From: Microbacterium salitolerans
GTDB lineage: Bacteria; Actinomycetota; Actinomycetes; Actinomycetales; Microbacteriaceae
Direction: 5' to 3'
DNA: 64,000 bases
Assembly: GCF_019720895.1 (NCBI RefSeq)
Contig: NZ_JAHKSH010000003.1
Location: 558,001 to 622,000 of the forward strand
Below are positions 7,143 to 56,243 of this stretch, one piece after another. Each line of letters starts with the position of its first letter. Position 1 is the first letter of the stretch. The notes beneath the pieces are model-generated. The model saw only the letters and a program-made list of their open reading frames with translations. It was not told where the DNA came from and searched no databases. A program made the translations under genes and the position numbers.

Positions 7143-7179
7143 ACGGGGCCGTCGGGAGTTCTTCTCCCGGCGGCCCCGT
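7143..7179 (+). terminator. Strong hairpin terminator after the helicase
   Basis: A 16-bp stem starting ACGGGGCCG, with one T-G wobble, closes a TTCTT loop (7159-7163) and lies 17 bases after the helicase stop. There is no clear T-run, as is common for actinobacterial terminators. Confidence 0.7.
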
Positions 7180-46607: not shown

Positions 46608-46670
46608 GATCGCTTGTGTGCTGAGCCCTCTTCCTTTTCGGGGGAGAGGTGCGGGATGATACCGCCGAGC

Positions 46671-46690
46671 AGGTAGTACCCGGACTACCT
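46671..46690. promoter_or_regulatory. Perfect inverted repeat AGGTAGT-N6-ACTACCT before the S8 peptidase gene
   Basis: The 7-bp arms with a 6-base centre end 22 bases before the ATG of the subtilase gene. Position and symmetry suit an operator for a dimeric regulator; it is too short and too close to the start codon for a terminator. Confidence 0.5.
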
Positions 46691-46712
46691 GGGCACCCGG
46701 GGAGTTGCATCC

Positions 46713-48344
46713 ATGGCGACCGATCACCACAGCATCCCCCAGCCCGAGGGCTGGACCTGGCGCGACCGCGCACGCGGCACGATCCCCGTCGGCCGCGTGC
46801 TCGACCCGATCGAAGACGCGTCGCCCGGTGACAACGTCTTCCCGACCGTGTACGTCCCCGATCGTCTGCTCGTGAGCCGTCGGAACGAGAAGACCACGGC
46901 CGACGACGACCTCGATGTCCTGCGCGAGGCGGCAGAGAGCTTCGGGTGGACGATCGTGCCCGAGACGCTCGCGGGTGAGCGCCTCGCGGAGGGCGAAGAG
47001 CCGGATCCGCTCGTCGAGGGAATCCCCGGCGTCCTGCGTGCCCGACTCACGACGCCCGACGAGCGCGTACGCGGCGAGTCGCCGGTCGCCGCCGACGCGT
47101 GGCGCGTGCTGCAGAAGGCGCGTCAGCTCGCCAAGGATCCGCTGGCCGATGTTGGGCTGGATCACGTGCTGGCCGTCGACCCGATCGGCGTCAATCCGTT
47201 CACGCGGACGAACCCGTTCACCAGGACCAACCCGTTCACGCGCACCAATCCCTTCACGCGCACCAACCCGTTCGGAACCGAGCAGTACGCGGAAGCGGGG
47301 CTCGGCGGACGGCAGCCGATCGCGCGCCTCGGGGCGGGGCCGGTCCGGAGCGCGAATCCGCGCAAGAGCGAACGCCGTGCCGTCGTTGCGTATCTCGACA
47401 CCGGGTGCGGCGAGCACACGTGGCTCCCGGACAGCATCGTCACGCGCCAGCTCGAGATCGACGGGCGTCCGATCGGTTTGACCGACGATGCGGATCCTGA
47501 GCGCTATCCGGATCTGTACGGCCCGCTCGACGGCGAGATCGACGCGGTGTCGGGGCACGGCACGTTCATCGCCGGAGTCCTCCGGCAGCTCGCGCCCGAC
47601 GCCGACATCGTCTCGGTGCGCGTCGCCGACGCTCGCGGCATCGTCTCCGAGAGCGCACTGCTCGCGTCGCTCGGCGACGTGGTCGAGCTCATGGTGCGTG
47701 CGGCCGCGGGGAAGGCCGACGGCCAGCCGATCGACGTGCTGAACCTGTCGCTCGGCTACTACCACGAGACGCCGGAGGACGGATTCTTCACGACCGTGCT
47801 CTTCGAGCTCCTGCGTGCCGCACGTGGGCTGGGCTGCGCTGTCGTGTGCTCGGTCGGCAACGACACGACCGATCGGCCGACGTTCCCCGCGTCTCTCTGG
47901 CCGTGGGACGGAGCGCACAACGGCATCGAGGGCGACGACGCCGCGCCGCACGTCTCGATCGGGGCGCTGAACCCGGCGTGCTCGTCGCTCGCGCTGTTCT
48001 CGAACATCGGCCCGTGGGTGCAGGCGTACGCGCCCGGAGCGTCCGTCGTCAGCACCATGCCCGCTTTCGACGGCGGGCGGCAGGCCTCGTCGCGCGACGA
48101 CCAGTACGACCACCGTCGCGAGACGATCGCGCCCGACGCGTACGTGGGCGGATTCGCCGCCTGGAGCGGCACGTCGTTCGCGGCCCCGTACGCGGCGGGG
48201 CTGATCGCGGCGAACCTCGGCATGGTCCCTGCTCGCCCGCGATCCCGTCGTGCGGCCTGCGAGCGGGTCACGCGAGCCGCCGGTGCCGCGATCGATGCGC
48301 TGCACGCCATCGATCATTCGCCGACGGCAGCTCCCGGCTCATGA
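46713..48344 (+). CDS. S8 family (subtilisin-like) serine peptidase, probably cytoplasmic
   Basis: The protein has 543 residues and neither a signal peptide nor a membrane segment. The catalytic triad is intact: Asp229 in VAYLDTGCG, His282 in SGHGTFIAGV and Ser488 in SGTSFAAPYAAG; the oxyanion Asn region is CSVGNDT. Residues ~25-160 form an N-terminal domain that could act as a propeptide. It is joined to the protease by four and a half NPFTRT units (161-187). The stop overlaps the ATG of a TPR-CHAT gene, and a convergent sigma-factor pair lies beyond it. A subtilase kept inside the cell beside a second protease suggests regulated proteolysis. The target is unknown. Confidence 0.88.
   Translation: MATDHHSIPQPEGWTWRDRARGTIPVGRVLDPIEDASPGDNVFPTVYVPDRLLVSRRNEKTTADDDLDVLREAAESFGWTIVPETLAGERLAEGEEPDPLVEGIPGVLRARLTTPDERVRGESPVAADAWRVLQKARQLAKDPLADVGLDHVLAVDPIGVNPFTRTNPFTRTNPFTRTNPFTRTNPFGTEQYAEAGLGGRQPIARLGAGPVRSANPRKSERRAVVAYLDTGCGEHTWLPDSIVTRQLEIDGRPIGLTDDADPERYPDLYGPLDGEIDAVSGHGTFIAGVLRQLAPDADIVSVRVADARGIVSESALLASLGDVVELMVRAAAGKADGQPIDVLNLSLGYYHETPEDGFFTTVLFELLRAARGLGCAVVCSVGNDTTDRPTFPASLWPWDGAHNGIEGDDAAPHVSIGALNPACSSLALFSNIGPWVQAYAPGASVVSTMPAFDGGRQASSRDDQYDHRRETIAPDAYVGGFAAWSGTSFAAPYAAGLIAANLGMVPARPRSRRAACERVTRAAGAAIDALHAIDHSPTAAPGS
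47193..47273 (+). repeat. NPFTRT hexapeptide repeat in the subtilase linker
   Basis: Four NPFTRT units plus a final NPF are encoded back to back. Each copy uses different synonymous codons (for example CGG, AGG and CGC for Arg), so the repeat is old and kept at protein level rather than being a fresh DNA expansion. Confidence 0.9.
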
Positions 48345-50827
48345 AGCTCACCGCGGAAGAGCTCCATCAGCGGGCCATCGACGACGTCAACGGCCGCCGT
48401 CTCAGCGCGGGGGAGCACAATCTCGACAGGGCCGAGGCGCGCGCGCAGACGAACGACGTCCGCGCGCGGATCGCGGCGACTCGGTCGTACGCGCTCTCGC
48501 TCCGAGGCGCGCACGCCGAGGCCGAGCGCGCGAGCCGCGCAGCTCTGCGCCTGCGCGATCTCGGAGAGCAGACGCGCGCGATCCTCCACGGTGAGCTGGG
48601 AGCTGTCCTCCTCACGGCGGGACGCTGGAAGGCCGCGATCTCGTCGCTCGACATCGCGCTCGCGATGCTCGACGATTCTCCGCAGGAGCGCGCGAACCTC
48701 CTCATGAATCGGGCCACGGCGAACATGGATCTCGGCGCACTCGACGACGCGATGCGCGACTGCGCGGAGGCGGTGGCGACGTTCACGGCCGACGGTGACA
48801 CCATCGGCGCCGCCCAGGCGCGCCACAACCTCGGGTACGTGGCCATGCTGCGGGGCGACCTGGCCCTCGCCCTGCGGGAGATGTCGGCGGTGCGCGACGA
48901 GCTCGAACGGGAGTCGCCCGCTCTCGCGGCGATCGCGGGTCTCGACCGCGCGGAGGTGCTGCGGGAGGCCGGTCAGCTGCGCGAGGCGGAAGCGCTCTTC
49001 GAGCGCGTCGCCCGCACCTTCGGCGCGCAGCGCATGCGTCAGTCCCGCGCCGAGGCCGAGTTCCGGCTCGCGCAGACGCTGCTCGCCCACGACCCCGGCC
49101 GCGCGGCGGGCGTGGCGAAGCTCGCGGCGAAGCGGTTCCGTGCACAGGGCAGCACGCCGTGGGCCCTGCGGGCGGATGGAGTGCGCCTGCGCGCCCTGCT
49201 TGCGCCCTCGCGCCGCCGGTTCGCCCAGACGGTCTCCGACGAGGTGCGCGCGAGCTGCGTGACGACGGCCCGTGCGCTCCTGCGCCTCGGATTCCGCAGC
49301 GAGTCGCGCGCGTTGCGGTTCGCGCGCGACGCCGCCCTTGCGCGCGCGGGTTCGCCGCCGCGCGTCACCCCACGCGCAGACGACACGGCCCCGCTGAACG
49401 TGCGCCTGCTCGCGTTCGAGGCGCAGGCGGCGCAGGCCGCGGCACGCGGCGACGACGCGGGTGCGCGGCGCGCCGCATACGAGGGCATCGCGCAGCTGGC
49501 GGGCTGGCAGCGCACGTTCGGCTCAATCGAGATGCTGTCCTCCGCCGCGATGCACGGCACCGGTGTCTTCCTCGAGGGCATCGACGCCGCGGTGCGCTCG
49601 GGGGATCCGGAGATCGTGTTCGAATGGTCGGAGATCACGCGGCATTTCAGCCAACAGGTCACTCCCGTGCGTCCTCCGCGAGACGACGAGCACGCCGCCG
49701 ATCTCAGCCGGCTGCGGTCGCTGCGCGCCGAGCTGGATGACGCCGCATGGGACACGGATCCGCGCGTCATCGGCCTGCGCCAGCGCGTCAGCGAGCGACG
49801 GTGGATGGATACCCAGGGCCAGGAAGGGCCGGCGCACGTCACCCTCGGCGCGCTGCGAGCCGCGCTCGACGAGGAGACGGCGCTGATGTCGTTCGTCTAT
49901 GTGCGAGAACGACTCCTCTGCCTCGTCGTGCCGCACACCGCGCCCCCGAGGATCGTCGATCTGTCGTGGCGTCGGGTCCGGGCTCTGCGCGATGGTCTCT
50001 TCCCCGACCTGAATGCGGCGGCCGAGACGCACGGGACGCCGACGGGGGCGCTCGTGCGCGACGCGCTGGACGTACGTCTCGCCGACCTGTCCGACGCCCT
50101 GCTCGTCGATGCGCTCCGTGTCGCCGGCGACCCGCGGCGCGTGATCATCACGGCGCCGGGGGAGCTGCAGGGCACGCCGTGGAGCATTCTCCCGGCGATG
50201 CGGGGTCGGGTCATGACGCTGAGCAGATCGGCGTCGAGGTGGGTCAACACCTGTCGCGCCGCCCGTCCGATCGAGCGGGTCGGCTTCGCCGTCGGCCCTG
50301 ACGTGCCGCGCGGAGGAGAGGAGGCGCGTGATGCCGCGGACATCTGGCGGCGGGCGCTTCCGCATCACGATGCTGCTCGGGTGCTCGACGGCGCCACGGC
50401 GACGGTCGACGCCGTCTCGCGTCTCGCGCGCGACGTCGATGTCCTGCACATCGTCGCGCACGGTCACCACTCGATCGACTCGCCGATGCTGTCCGCGTGC
50501 GCCCTCGCGGACGGCTCGCTGTTCGGCTACGACGTCGACGAGATCCCCTCACCGCCGGAGATCGTGCTGCTCTCCGCCTGCGAGCTCGGTCGATCGAGCG
50601 TGCAGTGGGGGGAGGAGGCGGTCGGCATGACGCGCGCGTGGCTGCATTCGGGAGTGCGCACCGTCATCGCGTCGCCGGTCGTCGTCGCGGACGACGTCGC
50701 CTGCGATCTGCTCTGCGCGCTGCACGAGCACCTGGCGGACGGGGCCGGGCCGGCGGAAGCGCTCGCGCTCGCCGCGGAGGAGACGGGGCACCTCGCGCCC
50801 TTCCTCTGCTACGGCTCCGGCTTCTGA
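48341..50827 (+). CDS. TPR-CHAT protein (caspase-like cysteine protease)
   Basis: The protein has 828 residues. The first ~330 are helical TPR-like repeats (ALDDAMRDCAEAVATF, ARHNLGYVAMLRGDLALAL and others), followed by a ~170-residue helical middle part. The C-terminal CHAT domain (~520-828) has an intact dyad: His707 in LHIVAHGHHS and Cys747 in VLLSACELGRS; GELQGTPWSILP is also typical. CHAT proteases are caspase relatives used in bacterial defence, as in TPR-CHAT of type III-E CRISPR and gasdermin activation. ATG 48341 overlaps the subtilase stop (ATGA), so the two are coproduced. The gene converges on a sigma-factor pair. Confidence 0.88.
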   Translation: MKLTAEELHQRAIDDVNGRRLSAGEHNLDRAEARAQTNDVRARIAATRSYALSLRGAHAEAERASRAALRLRDLGEQTRAILHGELGAVLLTAGRWKAAISSLDIALAMLDDSPQERANLLMNRATANMDLGALDDAMRDCAEAVATFTADGDTIGAAQARHNLGYVAMLRGDLALALREMSAVRDELERESPALAAIAGLDRAEVLREAGQLREAEALFERVARTFGAQRMRQSRAEAEFRLAQTLLAHDPGRAAGVAKLAAKRFRAQGSTPWALRADGVRLRALLAPSRRRFAQTVSDEVRASCVTTARALLRLGFRSESRALRFARDAALARAGSPPRVTPRADDTAPLNVRLLAFEAQAAQAAARGDDAGARRAAYEGIAQLAGWQRTFGSIEMLSSAAMHGTGVFLEGIDAAVRSGDPEIVFEWSEITRHFSQQVTPVRPPRDDEHAADLSRLRSLRAELDDAAWDTDPRVIGLRQRVSERRWMDTQGQEGPAHVTLGALRAALDEETALMSFVYVRERLLCLVVPHTAPPRIVDLSWRRVRALRDGLFPDLNAAAETHGTPTGALVRDALDVRLADLSDALLVDALRVAGDPRRVIITAPGELQGTPWSILPAMRGRVMTLSRSASRWVNTCRAARPIERVGFAVGPDVPRGGEEARDAADIWRRALPHHDAARVLDGATATVDAVSRLARDVDVLHIVAHGHHSIDSPMLSACALADGSLFGYDVDEIPSPPEIVLLSACELGRSSVQWGEEAVGMTRAWLHSGVRTVIASPVVVADDVACDLLCALHEHLADGAGPAEALALAAEETGHLAPFLCYGSGF

Positions 50828-50855
50828 GAATCGTTCCCCGCGTGAGTGTGCCTCT

Positions 50856-51326
50856 TCACACCTCGAACCACTGTGTCATGACCTCACGCAGGTTCTCGTC
50901 CTGCTTGACGACCATGCGCATGTGAGACGGCCCCGGTGGGACCTCGTCGAACGTGAAGCGCCCGTCGCCCGCAGTATCGGCCTTCCTCTCCACCTCCGGC
51001 TGGGCCAGTCGCGCGGCGAGAACCGCGGGCCTCGACCAGCCGTCGACCCGGCGCGTTCCGTTCCTCTCGGCCGAGACTCGGATGAGCACCTCCGCATCGT
51101 CGTCCGCGAAGTGCACCGTGCGCGGGGCGCTCCCTCGGCGCACGGATCCGGTCTTGTCGCCTTCAACGATCGTGAGGAGTTCGAACTCCCGGTTGAGGTC
51201 ATCGACCGCTGCGGCCGCGACCATGCGATCGGCGAGGCCGCTGGGAGCCGGATCTTCGGCGTCCCAGACCATGCGCAGTTCGCCGAGGAGCTCCTCGTCT
51301 TCCTTCGGCTCATCGATGTCAGGCAT
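50856..51326 (-). CDS. Small acidic protein coupled to the sigma factor (possible anti-sigma or protease target)
   Basis: The protein has 156 residues, is soluble and has no signal peptide. The first ~45 residues are acidic and helical (DEPKEDEELLGELRMVWDAE). The C-terminal half looks like a carboxypeptidase-regulatory/Ig-like beta domain (DTAGDGRFTFDEVPPGPSHM). ATG 51326 has a very strong GAGGAGGAG site lying inside the end of the sigma gene, and the two genes overlap by 8 bases. Sigma and anti-sigma pairs are arranged in this way, but no zinc-type or membrane anti-sigma motif is present, so that role is inference. It converges with the TPR-CHAT gene 28 bases away. Confidence 0.7.
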   Translation of the reverse strand: MPDIDEPKEDEELLGELRMVWDAEDPAPSGLADRMVAAAAVDDLNREFELLTIVEGDKTGSVRRGSAPRTVHFADDDAEVLIRVSAERNGTRRVDGWSRPAVLAARLAQPEVERKADTAGDGRFTFDEVPPGPSHMRMVVKQDENLREVMTQWFEV

Positions 51327-52008
51327 TGTCTCCTCCTCTTCGCACATCATTCATTCCAGCATCCAGGAAATTCCGCAGCTTCGCCAGACACCTGCTGCGT
51401 GTGGGTCCGATGCTTCCGACGGGCATGTGCAGCGCCTTCGAGATCTCCGCGTAGTCCGGCCGCTCGTCGAATGCGATGATGCGCAGCAGTCGCTGGCAAC
51501 GGGGATCGAGCCGTGCGACGGCGTTCCACAGATGTTGCCGCTCGTCGGACTCGGACACGTCGTGGTCGACTCCACGCCGCGCGGGCGCGAGGCGCTCGAG
51601 GCGCTCGTCCTCGGTGTCGTCGTCGCGCCCGTCGCGCTTCGAGGCGCGCCAGGCTTCGCGGCGGGCCGTGATCGTCAGCCACGCGGACACCGCCTGCGGC
51701 TCATCGATCGATTCATGCTTGCGCACGAGCGTGAGCCATGTCGTCTGAATCACGTCCTCCGCCACGGACGTGCGCAGTCCATAGGCGCGGACGACGTGCC
51801 ACAGCACCGGCGTCATGAGTCGCACCAGATCGTCGATGGCCCGCGGATCCCCGCCGCGCCAGCGCACGAAGAGAGCCGCGGCCCTGGCCCAGCGCTCGCC
51901 CGAGCGCCCGAGCGCGTCGGCAGTCCCGTCCGCAGCACGCTCGGGAGGCGAGGCGGAAGAATCGGCGGGCTGGCCGCCAGAAGGTGCCGATCGGGAATCG
52001 TCCTCCAT
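51319..52008 (-). CDS. ECF-type RNA polymerase sigma factor
   Basis: The protein has 229 residues. Its first ~50 are disordered (Ser/Asp/Pro-rich). Region 2 (~58-125) has LVRLMTPVLWHVVRAYGL and AEDVIQTTWLTLVRKHESI; region 4 (~165-215) has LDPRCQRLLRIIAFDERPDYAEISKALHM and the recognition helix GSIGPTRSRCLAKLR. It should direct RNA polymerase to a small regulon, perhaps the facing protease genes. ATG 52008 is the only start that leaves an upstream gap (109 bases to the next gene) for a promoter; longer in-frame forms lack conserved sequence. Confidence 0.88.
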   Translation of the reverse strand: MEDDSRSAPSGGQPADSSASPPERAADGTADALGRSGERWARAAALFVRWRGGDPRAIDDLVRLMTPVLWHVVRAYGLRTSVAEDVIQTTWLTLVRKHESIDEPQAVSAWLTITARREAWRASKRDGRDDDTEDERLERLAPARRGVDHDVSESDERQHLWNAVARLDPRCQRLLRIIAFDERPDYAEISKALHMPVGSIGPTRSRCLAKLRNFLDAGMNDVRRGGDNA

Positions 52009-52117
52009 ATTGTTCTCATTGTGCCCATACCAGTGAAGAGCGGCGCAACCCCCTGGTGATACGGCGTTCAGACGACATCGAGCATTCGTCGAGGTGAACT
52101 CCAGCGGAACCGTTCGG

Positions 52118-52561
52118 TCAGACGGCCGCGCGGACGGCACCTGCCGTCGTCAGGGCGTCGAGGGCGTGACGCAGGCGTGTGCTCGAGGTATGGGCCGTGT
52201 AGGGGAAGTAGACGACCTCGACGCCCACGGCTCCGAGCTCGCGCTCGAGGCGGATCCCCTTGTCGGTCCCGCGCCAGTCGTCGCCCTTGAAGAAGTGCGT
52301 GAAGCCCACGTCGCGCCAGGCGTCGATCTTGTCGGGGGTCGTCTCGACGTGCACGGCGTCGACGCACGCGAGGCTCCCGACGATCTCGGCCCGCTCGACT
52401 GCCGGGATCACGGGGGCGATGCCCTTCACAGCGCGGAGCATCTCATCGCTGACGACGCCTGCGACGAGGACGTCGCAGCGTTCCTTCGCGTGCCGCAGCA
52501 GGTTGAGGTGGCCGATGTGGAAGAGGTCGAACGCCCCGGCGGCGTACCCGATGCGAGTCAC
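52118..52561 (-). CDS. Glycerol-3-phosphate cytidylyltransferase-like nucleotidyltransferase
   Basis: The protein has 147 residues. Nucleotidyltransferase motifs: GAFDLFHIGHLNLL (HxGH) near residue 10, FKGDDWRGTDKG, and SSTRLRHAL at the C-terminus (the ISTTxL-like element). TagD relatives make CDP-glycerol from CTP and glycerol-3-phosphate for wall teichoic acids; similar enzymes activate other polyol phosphates. A CDP-alcohol transferase in the same run of genes could use its product. The GTG start overlaps the upstream acetyltransferase stop by 4 bases. It is the last gene of the glycopolymer run. Confidence 0.83.
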   Translation of the reverse strand: MTRIGYAAGAFDLFHIGHLNLLRHAKERCDVLVAGVVSDEMLRAVKGIAPVIPAVERAEIVGSLACVDAVHVETTPDKIDAWRDVGFTHFFKGDDWRGTDKGIRLERELGAVGVEVVYFPYTAHTSSTRLRHALDALTTAGAVRAAV

Positions 52562-53106
52562 GCGGAGATTCCCATCTGTCGCGATGCCCGTCGTCTGCCG
52601 GGTGAGAGGATATCGGCACCGGGCGAGAGCACGGTCGCGCCCGGCGGAACGTCGCGCACGACGACGGCGTTCGGGCCGATGCGCGCCCCGCGCCCGACGG
52701 TGATGGCGCCGATGATGACGGCGCCGACGCCGATCTCGACATCGGCTTCGATGACGGGGCAGTCGTCGCGTTCGCGCCGGTTGCCGAGCGTCACGCCGTG
52801 GCGGAGCATGACCCCGGATCCGATGACCGTGTGCGGATTGACGACGATCCCGATCCCGTGCCGCAGGCGCAGGCCCGGTCCGACCGAGGTCGACGTGGGC
52901 AGCTCGATGCCGAGGAACCCCTCCGTCACGAGGCGATACGGCACCGCGTAGACGAGGAAGAGCGCACGCCCCAGCCGTCCCGGCGTCTCACGCCAGCGCT
53001 GACAGCGGCGGAACCACGCGAGCACCAACCGGCTCTTCGGATAGGCCGCGTTCGCCGCGCGGTCCGCCGCACACGCGGCGCGCATGCGGTCGCGGGGGGC
53101 GCTCAT
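52558..53106 (-). CDS. Hexapeptide-repeat (CysE-like) acetyltransferase
   Basis: The protein has 182 residues. The left-handed beta-helix pattern is clear: LRLRHGIGIVVNPHTVIGSGVMLRHGVTLGNR, then IEADVEIGVGAVIIGAITVGRGARIGPNAVVVRDV, with the catalytic His in the LRHG turns. It is similar in layout to serine O-acetyltransferase, but the genes on both sides make an exported polysaccharide, so O-acetylation of a sugar or repeat unit is more likely. Its ATG overlaps the stop of the upstream GT2 gene. Confidence 0.82.
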   Translation of the reverse strand: MSAPRDRMRAACAADRAANAAYPKSRLVLAWFRRCQRWRETPGRLGRALFLVYAVPYRLVTEGFLGIELPTSTSVGPGLRLRHGIGIVVNPHTVIGSGVMLRHGVTLGNRRERDDCPVIEADVEIGVGAVIIGAITVGRGARIGPNAVVVRDVPPGATVLSPGADILSPGRRRASRQMGISA

Positions 53107-54038
53107 CGTGCCGGCCCTGCCAGAGCCGTCGCGGAATCGAACGGCAGCGTCGGCGGTGAGGAGAGGATCCGCTCCCACAGCCACGCGCAGCGACGGTCGA
53201 GCACCCCGATGAGGCGGCGCCGCGCCGGGAACGGCAGGGGCGAGACGGCCGCACGGACGTCGCGTTCGAACGCCGCGAAGCGCTCGAACGCCTCGGCGCG
53301 CGGCAGAGGCGCGACCGCGAGGGTCGTGATGCGCGTGTGCGGGCGGCCGAGAAGTCGCACTGAGAGCCGTTCGAACGCCTCCTGCGTCTCCGGATCCTGC
53401 CAGGAGCGTCGGCGCCAGGCGTCGGCGGCCGTCACCTGGTCGTCGTGTGTGCGGTAGAGGACCGCCGGCGCCGCGAGGCGCCGCATCGACGTGCCGCGAT
53501 GCGCGAGCCGAAGCCAGAGGTCGTAGTCCTCGCTGGGGACGACACGGTATCCGTCGCAGGCGGCGAGCGAAGCGCGCCGTGCCGCCATCGTCGAGTGGGC
53601 GACGGGGTTCGTCAGCAGCAGGTGGAACGGGAACGCGGCGGATCCGATCGGCGGCGAGAACGACGGACGCGGGGCGCCCCGGCCCGTCCACGCGGCGACC
53701 GAGGAGAAGACGACGTCCGCGGACTGCAGCGCGCGCAGCTGGTGGCGGAACCGGCCGGGCAGCGTGACGTCGTCGGCGTCCATGCGCGCGATGAACTCGC
53801 TGTCGGTGGCCTCGAGGAGTCCGTTGAGGGTGCGGGCGACGCCGCGATTCGGCCCGGAGATGACGCGCAGGCGCCGGTCATCGATTGCGGCGAGGACGTC
53901 GGCCGTGCCGTCGCGCGATCCGTCGTCGGCAACGACGAGCTCGGCGTCGCGGGGCAGCGCGCGGAGCGTCGACCGCACGGCGAGATCGATTGTTCCGGCG
54001 GCGTCGAAGGCGGGCAGCAGAACGCTGAGACGAGGCAT
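53103..54038 (-). CDS. Family 2 glycosyltransferase
   Basis: The protein has 311 residues with a GT-A fold: LSVLLPAFDAAGTIDLAVRS, ELVVADDGSRDGT, FIARMDADDVTLPGRF (DxD) and VPSEDYDLWLRLAHRG. It should add one sugar to the lipid-linked repeat unit on the inner membrane face. The C-terminal ~90 residues are Arg- and Phe-rich and not conserved. The ATG lies one base after the next GT2 gene's stop; its own stop overlaps the acetyltransferase start. Confidence 0.88.
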   Translation of the reverse strand: MPRLSVLLPAFDAAGTIDLAVRSTLRALPRDAELVVADDGSRDGTADVLAAIDDRRLRVISGPNRGVARTLNGLLEATDSEFIARMDADDVTLPGRFRHQLRALQSADVVFSSVAAWTGRGAPRPSFSPPIGSAAFPFHLLLTNPVAHSTMAARRASLAACDGYRVVPSEDYDLWLRLAHRGTSMRRLAAPAVLYRTHDDQVTAADAWRRRSWQDPETQEAFERLSVRLLGRPHTRITTLAVAPLPRAEAFERFAAFERDVRAAVSPLPFPARRRLIGVLDRRCAWLWERILSSPPTLPFDSATALAGPAR

Positions 54039-54039
54039 G

Positions 54040-54945
54040 TCACACGCCCCTTCCCCGGGCGTTGAGCGCCCGGACGATGCGCGGACCGGAGACGAGCCGC
54101 AGGCCGACGCACAGCGCGAGGTACGCCCGTGCCTGTCGCCGGTCGTCGCGCAGGGCGCGGCCCGCCCAGTGGCGCGCGTCGGCGAGCGACCCGAGGGCGC
54201 CGTGGGCGAAGGCGATCTGGCCCTCGACCCGTGCGCGGCCTGTCGCGGATCCCGCGAACTCCGGATGCTTGTCGAGCAGGTAGCCGAGCCCGTCGACGAT
54301 CCCCTGCCAGCGCTCGGTGAAGAACGAGGCGCGATCCCAGTGGACGATCGTGAGCGGATCCGGGACGGCGGCGACGGCGCCGATCCGTGCGGCCCGGAGC
54401 AGCAGATCGTAGTCCTCGCCGTAGCCCGTCGGGAGCTCCTCGTCGACCAGACCGAGCCTGCCGCGCAGATCGTGCGTGCGGAGCAGGAACGACGAGGGGT
54501 GCAGCTCGGTGATCCGCGAGCGCACGAGATCGTCGAGTCGCGTCGTCGCCGGCGGCGTGCGCACATGCGACCCACCGCTCGAGAGGATCCGGATCCCCGT
54601 GGCGGCGAGCACGACGTCCGGATCCTCGAGGAGCGGCAGCTGCGACGCGAGCTTGCCCGGTTCCCATTCGTCGTCGTCATCGCAGAACGCGACGGCCTCG
54701 GCCCTCGCGGCGAGGATCCCGGTGTTGCGCGCGCCGGCGAGACCCGGTGTGCGCGTGTTGGCGACGGTGCGGAGCATGTGCCGCCCCGGGCCGACGTCGT
54801 CGAGCGGGTCCACCGGAGAGCCGTCGAACACGACGACGATCTCGAGGAACCCCGCGACATCCTGCGCGAGGACGGAGCGGATCGCGCGCCGCAGCAGCTC
54901 TGCGCGATCGCGCGTCGCGATGACGACCGTGACGAGGGGACTCAT
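54040..54945 (-). CDS. Family 2 glycosyltransferase
   Basis: The protein has 301 residues. Motifs: TVVIATRDRAELLRRAIRS, EIVVVFDGSPVD, GLAGARNTGILAA, VAFCDDDDEWEPGKL (extended DxD) and GYGEDYDLLLRAARIG. It differs from its neighbour at 53103 in both acceptor-side sequence and C-terminal helices, so the two probably add different sugars. A good AGG-type ribosome site precedes ATG 54945, which overlaps the stop of the ligase-like gene. Confidence 0.88.
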   Translation of the reverse strand: MSPLVTVVIATRDRAELLRRAIRSVLAQDVAGFLEIVVVFDGSPVDPLDDVGPGRHMLRTVANTRTPGLAGARNTGILAARAEAVAFCDDDDEWEPGKLASQLPLLEDPDVVLAATGIRILSSGGSHVRTPPATTRLDDLVRSRITELHPSSFLLRTHDLRGRLGLVDEELPTGYGEDYDLLLRAARIGAVAAVPDPLTIVHWDRASFFTERWQGIVDGLGYLLDKHPEFAGSATGRARVEGQIAFAHGALGSLADARHWAGRALRDDRRQARAYLALCVGLRLVSGPRIVRALNARGRGV

Positions 54946-56243
54946 GAGGACCTCCGGGGGTGTGGGACGACGGATGGATGTGACGATTCCGAGTACGGGA
55001 TGACGGTCGCCGCGGGGAGGAGCGCGAGCGCGAGCCCGTGCGGCAGGACGCCGTAGTAGAAGACCTCCACGAACAGGACGACCTGGATCACGTGGATGGG
55101 CATCGCCAGGGGTCCGCGATGGCGCGAGGTGGCCCAGGCGAGCCAGAGGATCGCCGCGAGGAAGAGGAACAGGGCCGGGAATCCGTGGGAGAACAGGACC
55201 ATCCAGACGTGTCCCTGCGTTCCTGCCGAGGGCGCCCCGGGCGTCCACGACGGGCGGGGCGCTCCGTAGCCGAACAGAGGAGACTCGAGCGTTCGGGCGA
55301 ACGTCTCCTGGTACAGGTCGGCGCGGTTCTCAGTCGATGAGCTGTTCTCCATGCGTCCTGTCAGGCGGTCCCACACGTCCAGCGCCGTCGCGGCGATGAG
55401 TCCCGCGGCGCAGGCGCCCGCGAGCCCCGCGAGGGCGCGCATCCGTCCGGAACCGAGCGCGAGCAGCCCGCTGTATACGACGGCGATGCCGAGCCCGATG
55501 AACATTCCGCGATTGAGCGTGAGGAACGCCGGGACGAGAGACGCCGCGATGGCGACGACGAGCCCGAGGAACCGGAGGTCGCGGGGCATGCGCGTCAGCC
55601 GCGCGATCACGAGCGGGAGCAGCAGGGAGTACGCGTTGCCCCATCCGTTCGTGTACAGGAACGGCGCCGACGGGCGCGGATCGAGCGCGGCCCATGCGTC
55701 GGGATTCCACTGCGTGGCTCGGCGCTCGACCATCTCGCCGACGAGCTCGTTGGCCTGGAGGGAGGCAGGCAGCACGTACCCCAGGGGCGTGCGGAAAGAG
55801 AACTCCGGTGCGAGGATGCCGAGCCAGCCGCCGGCTACGACGAAGAGCCAGAACACGGTGAGGATCCCGAGCATCCGGTCGGGCGTCAGCGTGCGCCGTG
55901 CGTTGTAGACGTAGACGAACGCGATCGTGAGCGCGAGGTACTGCGCGGCGCGATAGACGAATCCGATGAGTCGTCCCGACGAGTCGATGCCGATCACCGA
56001 GACGGCGACGCACGCGAGGAAGAGCAGCCAGATGCCGAGTCCGCGCGGCGCGCGGATGTCGCCCCGCCGCGCCATGAGGATCGCCATGGCGCCCGCCAGG
56101 GGGAGCCAGGCCATCTCCCCGACGCCGAGCAGCCACCACAGGGGGAAGGCCGCGAACATGGCGGTCACGGGCCAGCTGGGCAGCTCGGTGCGGACGAGGA
56201 GCGCCGGGCCCGATGCGGTGCGCGCGAGCGTGTCAGACCGCAT
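54942..56243 (-). CDS. O-antigen ligase/polymerase-like membrane protein (Wzy_C family)
   Basis: The protein has 433 residues and ten to twelve helices. The large external loop and flanking helices carry the family's features: LTLNRGMFIGLG, ENRADLYQETFARTLESPLFGYG and HVWMVLFSHGFPALFLF. Such proteins polymerise or ligate lipid-linked repeat units outside the membrane. A flippase and a Wzz-like regulator in the same run make a Wzx/Wzy-type pathway likely. It overlaps the Wzz-like gene by 11 bases. Confidence 0.87.
   Translation of the reverse strand: MRSDTLARTASGPALLVRTELPSWPVTAMFAAFPLWWLLGVGEMAWLPLAGAMAILMARRGDIRAPRGLGIWLLFLACVAVSVIGIDSSGRLIGFVYRAAQYLALTIAFVYVYNARRTLTPDRMLGILTVFWLFVVAGGWLGILAPEFSFRTPLGYVLPASLQANELVGEMVERRATQWNPDAWAALDPRPSAPFLYTNGWGNAYSLLLPLVIARLTRMPRDLRFLGLVVAIAASLVPAFLTLNRGMFIGLGIAVVYSGLLALGSGRMRALAGLAGACAAGLIAATALDVWDRLTGRMENSSSTENRADLYQETFARTLESPLFGYGAPRPSWTPGAPSAGTQGHVWMVLFSHGFPALFLFLAAILWLAWATSRHRGPLAMPIHVIQVVLFVEVFYYGVLPHGLALALLPAATVIPYSESSHPSVVPHPRRSS

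Follow-up and report, generated by a model that had tools for sequence, protein, structure and literature searches.

Conserved actinobacterial gene set of ECF54 type and its possible function as a protease-controlled sigma-factor switch

Results

Four genes and their products

The window is the whole 64,000-nucleotide stretch of Microbacterium salitolerans DNA that was analysed. It carries four neighbouring genes, whose predicted positions were all confirmed. On the forward strand, the gene of an intracellular-type S8 subtilase (543 aa, 46713–48344) overlaps that of a TPR-CHAT protease (828 aa, 48341–50827) through an ATGA at 48341–48344. On the reverse strand, the gene of an ECF-type sigma factor (229 aa, 51319–52008) overlaps by 8 nt that of a small acidic partner (156 aa, 50856–51326), which has the ribosome site GAGGAGGAG.

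Both proteases had been predicted to be catalytically intact and not secreted, and both points held. The subtilase (Pfam Peptidase_S8, 1e-19) has the catalytic residues D229 and H282, conserved in 145/145 sequences, and S488, conserved in 144/145. The TPR-CHAT protease (Pfam CHAT, 1e-23, match at 50123–50773) has H707 and C747, each conserved in 138/140. The exceptions are gapped or frame-shifted sequences. No hydrophobic N-terminus was found in either protein, and the subtilase has no signal sequence. In searches against the PDB, the subtilase profile matched CylA, intracellular serine proteases and subtilisin BPN'. The CHAT protein matched chains named 'CHAT domain protein' (E 3e-8), which we take to be Craspase entries, and a chain named Csx29 (E 6e-5). 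By these matches, the CHAT domain shows a detectable relation to the TPR-CHAT proteins solved for Craspase.

The N-terminal region of the subtilase matched no Pfam family, and no I9 prodomain was matched by Pfam. Between this region and the catalytic domain lies a tandem NPFTRT array (47192–47281, forward strand) of 18-nt units, with four exact peptide copies and a partial one. Tandem NP[FYH]-type peptides with at least three exact copies were found in 84 of 90 subtilase genes, in which exact peptide copies differ by a median of 13% in their nucleotides. The peptides are the same within one protein while the codons vary, and they differ from species to species. Such arrays are new as far as searched. 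Deeper relatives of the subtilase (from L180 on) showed no array although they still accompany sigma factor and partner, so the array is not essential to the scheme everywhere.

The sigma factor has regions 2 and 4. Its match to Pfam Sigma70_r2 (2e-9) and to TIGR02937 (64.8 bits) was over the cut-off and the r4 match was below it; ECF sigma factors were matched in the PDB, and region 4 carries GSIGPTR.RC. A subtilase, a CHAT protein and a carboxypeptidase-like protein lie beside it, the last being represented by a sub-threshold regulatory-domain match only. The protein set fits ECF54 (model member SFT86700.1), so it is not new; this assignment was made by gene context.

The partner is acidic as predicted (pI 4.5) and has no cysteine in the window. 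Its N-terminal half has a DPxP motif, and its C-terminal half is weakly like CarboxypepD_reg, which is the sole Pfam signal and sub-threshold (E 0.026). Arg63, between the two halves (codon at 51138–51140, reverse strand), was invariant in 120/120 sequences, an observation that is new as far as searched. The stretch around Arg63 is a candidate cleavage region; the role of the residue may also be structural. Pfam, profile and PDB sequence searches found no known anti-sigma signature, and no PDB chain was a credible sequence match (best E 0.38).

Gene order and co-inheritance

Relatives were counted in two Microbacterium sets, L057–L136 (n = 80) and L017–L056 (n = 40), which were kept apart because species are common to both; kinship among the sequences inflates all counts. 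The convergent layout described for the window is real there, but was found in none of the relatives (0/80 and 0/40). In Microbacterium-type relatives, the module genes all lie on one strand, usually in the order sigma factor, small protein, S8, CHAT, and this exact order was found in 70 of the 80 loci of L057–L136. The sigma gene stands directly before the partner gene in all 79 loci of this set with settable starts and overlaps it in 70; L019, one of the 40 loci of the other set, has the two in reverse order. Among loci fetched around the partner, the sigma gene was present in 80/80 (L057–L136) and in 39 of 40 distant regions; among these 40 regions, 29 had S8 and 29 had CHAT. The small protein is a constant neighbour of the sigma factor.

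The small protein and CHAT are also inherited together. Within the genus, 79 of 149 genomes have both, 67 have neither and 3 are discordant. In the class, both were found in 121 of 394 genomes, neither in 263 and one alone in 10 (phi 0.94), which means joint presence or joint absence in 384. Counted by best matches only, the two genes were more than 6 kb apart or unlinked in 24 of 110 class genomes, 20 of these on different contigs; the 110 are those outside the window's genus that have both genes (112 less G199 and G266). In four single-contig genomes, the distance was 1.8–4.7 Mb. In eight f27 genomes where CHAT lies away from the sigma-partner pair, plus one where it is on another contig, the subtilase adjoins CHAT (L207–L215). 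Genomes of the genus that carry the module have a single copy, except one fragmented draft, and some large class genomes have up to four. The co-occurrence across actinobacterial genomes and the shared synteny show that the four genes are a conserved and widespread actinobacterial module, probably a signalling unit, and not a chance grouping.

Conserved promoter element

An ECF-type promoter element, CGTATCA-N16-CTC, lies upstream of the sigma gene in the window (52038–52063, reverse strand). In the form [CT]GTATCA-N16-CTC, derived from the same loci in which it was counted, the element was found upstream of the sigma gene in 68/79 loci of L057–L136, and a second copy was found just after the CHAT stop in 63/74. 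Reversed and opposite-strand controls at these sites gave 0. In the window, no copy stands ahead of S8-CHAT. In distant genera (spacer 15–17), the element was found upstream of the sigma gene in 7/38, S8 in 8/29 and CHAT in 0/27, against 1/38, 3/29 and 3/27 for the opposite-strand control; overall it was present in 15/39 loci, with 0/39 for the reversed control. The starts of unlinked S8 and CHAT genes had none (0/10 each). The conserved promoter and its second copy are new as far as searched, and we infer that this sigma factor reads [CT]GTATCA-N16-CTC.

Whole-genome enrichment of the element was weak, with 6 matches versus 4 for the reversed control in the window's genome and 40 versus 29 in 13 relatives. 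Regulon claims therefore rest on position and not on number. As read from coordinates, 19 of the 40 matches in relatives are no more than 2 kb away from a module gene. In the window's genome, the element recurs before a sugar transferase gene, and polysaccharide genes in its nearest relatives are a candidate output of the sigma factor.

Structured RNA after CHAT in relatives

The frames downstream of CHAT, considered as a possible protein-coding target, have no common protein, and several were judged by eye to be the antisense of a convergent gene; this led to the RNA reading. What follows the element after CHAT in relatives is a non-coding, structured RNA, whose hairpin loops read GGGG and whose terminator shows covariation. 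Double changes were found at 7 of 12 pairs of the terminator hairpin, and GGGG hairpin loops numbered 52 versus 6.7 expected in 59 RNA sequences (72 before removal of near-identical ones; 10 of the 59 from L017–L056). RNAalifold recovered the terminator but not the body from a 33-sequence alignment, and hence no consensus fold is claimed for the body. RNAs of three loci had no Rfam match at the gathering score, and a lenient search with two RNAs gave only mir-621, MIR477 and istR, all sub-gathering.

A model of the RNA (R1) was made from 13 sequences belonging to a single clade and searched in 38 Microbacterium loci that have the element and lie outside the model. In eight of them (L026, L029, L050, L077, L085, L090, L095 and L104) it recovered the other-type RNA over its full length and where it was expected, but the matches were weak (E 0.005 to 0.7 over 75 sources). 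Another match of full length fell elsewhere (L073:10522, E 0.98). Of 18 more element sites, all in distant loci, only those of L172, L175 and L178 were followed by an RNA-like stretch with two GGGG loops, and that of L205 by one with a single loop. No such RNA was found in the window's module; an R1 match at 7145 of the window was dismissed, as it covers the terminator part only. In many relatives, the second promoter thus seems to drive a small RNA next to CHAT that is undescribed and new as far as searched.

CRISPR genes and defence neighbours

The module was proposed to be CRISPR-independent, and this stands because neither RAMP (PF03787) nor cas1 (PF01867) was matched in the window's genome. 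An enrichment in defence islands was not supported. PADLOC searches of the neighbours matched 48 families at E <= 1e-5, with generic matches and no control set, and none of the 25 families listed matched more than 3 of 125 neighbour-cluster representatives. Among the module proteins, S8 gave weak subtilase and IetS matches in PADLOC (best E 5e-5) and the other three gave none. The neighbour families met most often occur in 35, 34 and 30 of 73 loci, so the module sits at a few stable chromosomal places. No match to the small protein was found in phages, and CHAT had only two low-identity matches among plasmid records, one of which is as large as a chromosome.

Discussion

For ECF54, carboxypeptidase, subtilase and CHAT neighbours have already been described (Huang 2015, Casas-Pastor 2021, as outlined in the review PMC8999054), and control by proteolysis without an anti-sigma factor is proposed there.

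We give an even chance to the module being an ECF54-type switch in the cytoplasm, in which proteases control the sigma factor. The partner is likely an anti-sigma factor, new as far as searched and presumably soluble, because it stays beside the sigma factor even where the proteases have moved away. From these patterns, we infer the following order of events. The partner would bind the sigma factor and hold it off promoters. The TPR part of the TPR-CHAT protease would sense an internal signal, and this protease would act alone or together with the subtilase, whose activity may be restrained by its own N-terminal region and NP[FYH] array. A cut in the partner's linker around Arg63 would free the sigma factor, which would then transcribe its own operon from the element in a positive feedback. 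Further targets would be the polysaccharide genes in the window's nearest relatives and, in many relatives, the GGGG-loop RNA directly 3' of CHAT; this RNA likely regulates by feedback or acts as a protein sponge.

It is rather unlikely that the proteases instead degrade the sigma factor itself until a signal stops them, the small protein being an adaptor or chaperone. This would be near the published ECF54 proposal as the review presents it (PMC8999054), and would agree with the partner's lack of a known anti-sigma signature. However, the partner keeps to the sigma factor when the proteases lie elsewhere, its gene overlaps in most loci, and it diverges faster (35–61% identity to the window protein versus 53–67% for the sigma factor), as a regulator may; none of these points is decisive. 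Similarly doubtful is a zymogen cascade, in which CHAT would cut the array and switch on the subtilase to destroy the partner, or the subtilase would activate CHAT. S8 and CHAT remain neighbours when both are away from the sigma gene, and the array separates the N-terminal region from the catalytic domain and keeps its peptides despite differing codons. NPF and NPY may resemble preferred subtilisin substrates and LIPY/F, the inhibitory motif of intracellular subtilisins. The absence of the array from deeper relatives speaks against such a cascade.

Less probable still is a CRISPR-free, RNA-tuned caspase circuit, where a sigma factor set free by TPR-CHAT proteolysis would make the GGGG-loop RNA, which would bind TPR-CHAT or its trigger and toggle the protease, and the array, specific to each species and diverged in its codons, would be the matched recognition tag of that same complex. 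A role in phage defence, raised in the original prediction, is improbable. Under it, TPR-CHAT would sense phage and the freed sigma factor would launch a protective programme of abortive infection, by analogy to Craspase and to predicted conflict systems in which caspase-domain proteins are found together with ECF sigma factors (PMC8195603). The recurring chromosomal positions, the neighbour search and the phage and plasmid results argue against it, as does the single copy per genome in the genus, despite the higher numbers in large class genomes. That the genes are unrelated neighbours, a module in appearance alone, would suit the unusual convergent layout of the window but is refuted by co-occurrence and synteny in genus and class.

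Returning to the protease-controlled switch, the sigma-partner and CHAT set is spread widely in the class, yet no tested function was found for it. The question can now be tested with the promoter element as a reporter, the candidate anti-sigma factor and its cut region, the candidate polysaccharide output and the short RNA. If CHAT proteolysis does free the sigma factor here, the logic of Craspase would have branched off from a far wider, CRISPR-free type of bacterial caspase signalling.

Comparison with known systems

Like intracellular subtilisins, the window subtilase is an S8 protease without a signal sequence, but it differs in its own N-terminal region, its NP[FYH] array and its genetic tie to a sigma factor. 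The RNA resembles sponge RNAs of the CsrB/RsmZ type in being short, in its repeated G-rich hairpin loops, and in apparently being made under the control of a system on which it possibly feeds back. The loops of those RNAs are GGA, whereas the RNA here has GGGG loops, no known binding protein and no Rfam match.

ECF54 shares with the module an ECF sigma factor near proteins annotated as carboxypeptidase, subtilase and CHAT, and proteolysis is proposed for it (PMC8999054). The published view, as far as the review gives it, has no anti-sigma factor, whereas the 'carboxypeptidase' is read here as a non-enzymatic sigma partner; the parts of PMC8999054 available to us hold no unlinked co-inheritance, repeat array, second promoter or small RNA. 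Craspase (Csx29, Csx30 and CASP-sigma) likewise unites a related TPR-CHAT protease with a small protein and a sigma factor of the ECF type, and its substrate Csx30 is described as restraining the sigma factor (PMC10028731). The window's TPR-CHAT is related to Csx29, but its genome has neither the Cas7-11-type effector nor the adaptation genes of CRISPR, as judged by RAMP and cas1. The module also differs by its extra subtilase, by a partner with no PDB sequence match, and by the small RNA that relatives of the window have of their own.

Conservation of the four-gene module

The four genes form a module. They lie at 46713–52008 of the window, as originally predicted, and encode a subtilase (S8) of 543 aa without a signal sequence, a TPR-CHAT protease of 828 aa, an ECF sigma factor of 229 aa and a small acidic protein of 156 aa, here called the partner. 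The ATGA overlap of the subtilase and CHAT genes and the 8-nt overlap of the sigma and partner genes were also confirmed. The predicted convergence of the two gene pairs holds for the window, where 28 nt separate the CHAT and partner genes, but is found in neither the 40-locus nor the 80-locus set of Microbacterium-type relatives. A perfect inverted repeat, CAGGTAGT-N6-ACTACCTG, is located 5' of the subtilase gene (46670–46691), and is a possible operator or leader hairpin.

The proposed co-occurrence was borne out in the window's genus, where both partner and CHAT were found in 79 of 149 genomes and neither in 67 (partner in 81, CHAT in 80). The three discordant genomes are two drafts of only 79 and 88% completeness and one whose CHAT gene lies 1 kb from the start of its contig. 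All the regions of the 40-locus set, fetched by the partner, carry the sigma and CHAT genes (CHAT truncated in one, where the region ends), and the subtilase is present in 39; one locus (L019) has the partner first. No subtilase was seen within the 16 kb fetched around the module of L018 (genome G032). In the 80-locus set (GTDB genomes, fetched by the partner, 77 labelled Microbacterium), the order sigma > partner > S8 > CHAT on a single strand was found in 70 loci, and the others were 3 shorter sets, 4 with split frames and 3 with S8 after CHAT. By profile match, sigma was ahead of the partner in 80/80; the partner followed directly in all 79 loci with assigned starts, overlapping in 70. One Microbacterium-typical module came from a record labelled Planococcus sp. 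APC 4015, an assembly that is probably contaminated or mislabelled.

Across the class, the partner (broader alignment) was found in 129 and CHAT of this type (E ≤ 1e-60) in 123 of 394 genomes: 121 had both, 8 the partner alone, 2 CHAT alone and 263 neither (phi 0.94, for related species and searches of differing threshold). In 40 distant regions fetched by the partner, sigma was present in 39, S8 in 29 and CHAT in 29. Linkage was counted in 110 of the 112 two-gene genomes outside the window's genus; the best hits were ≤6 kb apart in 86 and not in 24, four of which have them on one contig at distances of 1.8, 3.2, 3.5 and 4.7 Mb. In one family of the survey (f27), the CHAT gene is away from sigma and partner, which stand amid ordinary genes such as thymidine kinase (two regions scanned). 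CHAT was present in 8 of the 9 f27 genomes searched, the ninth being 75% complete, and a subtilase of the module's type was ≤1.5 kb from CHAT in those 8 as well as in a genome from a different family. Sigma-partner and S8-CHAT are thus two fixed pairs, which are kept together in genomes, not always in loci. One genome that already has a CHAT-subtilase pair carries a second, weaker one (locus L216, genome G391, contig C239).

The proteases and the partner

The predicted active sites proved to be conserved, D229 and H282 of S8 in 145/145 sequences and S488 in 144, and H707 and C747 of CHAT each in 138/140. Judged by these residues, both proteases look alive. The profile of the subtilase finds CylA, intracellular serine proteases and subtilisins; that of the CHAT domain finds chains named 'CHAT domain protein' (E 3e-8), which we take to be Craspase, and a chain named Csx29 (6e-5). 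Its best match, ahead of the Craspase chains, is the CHAT protein of a solved structure, 8rot (9e-12); a literature search turned up no paper naming this closest solved CHAT by sequence (8rot / 8rw5).

Tandem NP[FYH]-type units follow directly on a conserved 'GLDHVLSVDP'-like stretch in the window's subtilase and in each of the 39 relatives of the first alignment; the units of the window are four copies of NPFTRT (47192–47281). Among 90 subtilase genes (the window, 77 from the 80-locus set and 12 distant), 84 contain three or more copies that are exact in peptide, with 34 different unit sequences; in the other 6 the units are imperfect or lacking or the gene is truncated. In distant relatives the units are GYGDGV, GHPITG, PFTRGA or none. 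The copies are identical in peptide and differ by a median of 13% in nucleotides. Because the peptides are uniform and the codons diverged, the arrays point to selection on the peptide, which might serve as a pseudo-substrate, cut site or docking tag.

The partner family has a nearly invariant DPxP motif in its N-terminal half, and its C-terminal half is weakly like a carboxypeptidase regulatory domain. As the partner matched no peptidase family and has no cysteine in the window, it is unlikely to be a carboxypeptidase or a zinc-type anti-sigma factor. P28, R63, F73, G96, F124 and G132 are identical in 120/120 sequences, and R63 sits between the two halves. Separase-like CHAT relatives favour Arg ahead of the cut. 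We consider it rather probable that the partner acts as an anti-sigma factor, and give about even chances to the release of sigma being brought about by one of the two proteases.

A shared promoter element and a structured RNA

The element [CT]GTATCA-N16-CTC, derived from the relatives' loci, was found 5' of sigma in 68/79 loci of the 80-locus set, and in the window at 52063–52038 (minus strand). With a spacer of 15–17, it was found in distant genera 5' of sigma in 7/38, of S8 in 8/29 and of CHAT in 0/27; the reversed pattern gave 0 throughout and the opposite strand 1, 3 and 3, respectively. The element tends to mark the operon's first gene, the pattern expected from an autoregulating ECF sigma factor, and is presumably read by the module's sigma. 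A published promoter motif may exist for ECF54, the known sigma group fitted by gene context. A one-mismatch search of the window returned the sigma promoter and four other sites, below chance expectation.

The element also stands shortly 3' of the CHAT stop codon in 63/74 loci of the 80-locus set (at +17 in 28; reversed and opposite-strand controls 0). Behind it is a stretch of ~100–195 nt with no conserved protein gene and a strong hairpin at its end, such as L075:14311–14463 and L032:3358–3507, with covarying terminator and repeated GGGG loops. Double changes were observed at 7/12 pairs of the terminal hairpin (33 sequences) and, in a second clade (13 sequences), at 14/34 predicted pairs, including the stem that closes a GGGG loop (for example CGCACU/AGUGCG). 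In 59 sequences, 52 hairpin loops held GGGG versus 6.7 in dinucleotide shuffles, and the median folding z-score was -2.9 (below -2 in 47). No Rfam family matched at gathering score in three RNA-bearing loci; in a lenient search with two RNAs, the only matches, to microRNA families and istR, were below that score. Similar stretches follow 3/18 further element sites in distant loci (L172, L175 and L178), and none was found in the window, with its 28 nt after CHAT. That the RNA acts on CHAT is improbable in our estimate. In four f27 loci (L182, L183, L186 and L189), five or six G in a row occur upstream of sigma or at its start, in L183 partly within hairpins; these runs are perhaps the f27 form of the RNA in another place.

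Polysaccharide genes as a possible output

The window's genome has six copies of the element versus four of the reversed control. The six comprise the sigma promoter, a copy outside the window, at a distance of 13 kb and 5' of a bacterial sugar transferase gene (PF02397), and four that look by eye like coding sequence. Among the nearest relatives, chosen by partner identity, G148 likewise has a copy 5' of a sugar transferase-type gene, and G032 has copies 5' of two glycosyltransferase genes and a polysaccharide flippase; at its module (L018), CHAT is followed by two sigma-type copies, one of them in front of a polysaccharide flippase gene. M. barkeri (L017) has a copy ahead of a frame that, judged by eye, starts like the window's cytidylyltransferase gene. 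That gene belongs to a polysaccharide cluster adjoining the module (52118–56243; cytidylyltransferase, hexapeptide transferase, glycosyltransferase 2 and Wzy_C). Because the element copies and this cluster both involve polysaccharide genes, control of polysaccharide synthesis in the window's nearest relatives is a fair but unproven reading.

Comparison with known systems

For Craspase, excerpts of PMC10028731 describe a TPR-CHAT protease whose cleavage target binds an ECF sigma factor and inhibits it. The window's genome has no RAMP or cas1 match, so Craspase is a working analogy for the module, not a system to which it belongs. For ECF54, excerpts of PMC8999054 say, citing Casas-Pastor 2021 and Huang 2015, that proteolytic control without an anti-sigma factor has been proposed on the grounds that carboxypeptidase, subtilase and CHAT proteins are conserved in its vicinity. 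Judged by titles, a literature search gave no other paper describing this module or RNA, and excerpts of PMC8103513 and PMC5994538 hold nothing on the module. The protein content of the module is already known; the unlinked co-inheritance, the partner assignment, the repeat array, the promoter pair and the small RNA are additions that make the module testable.
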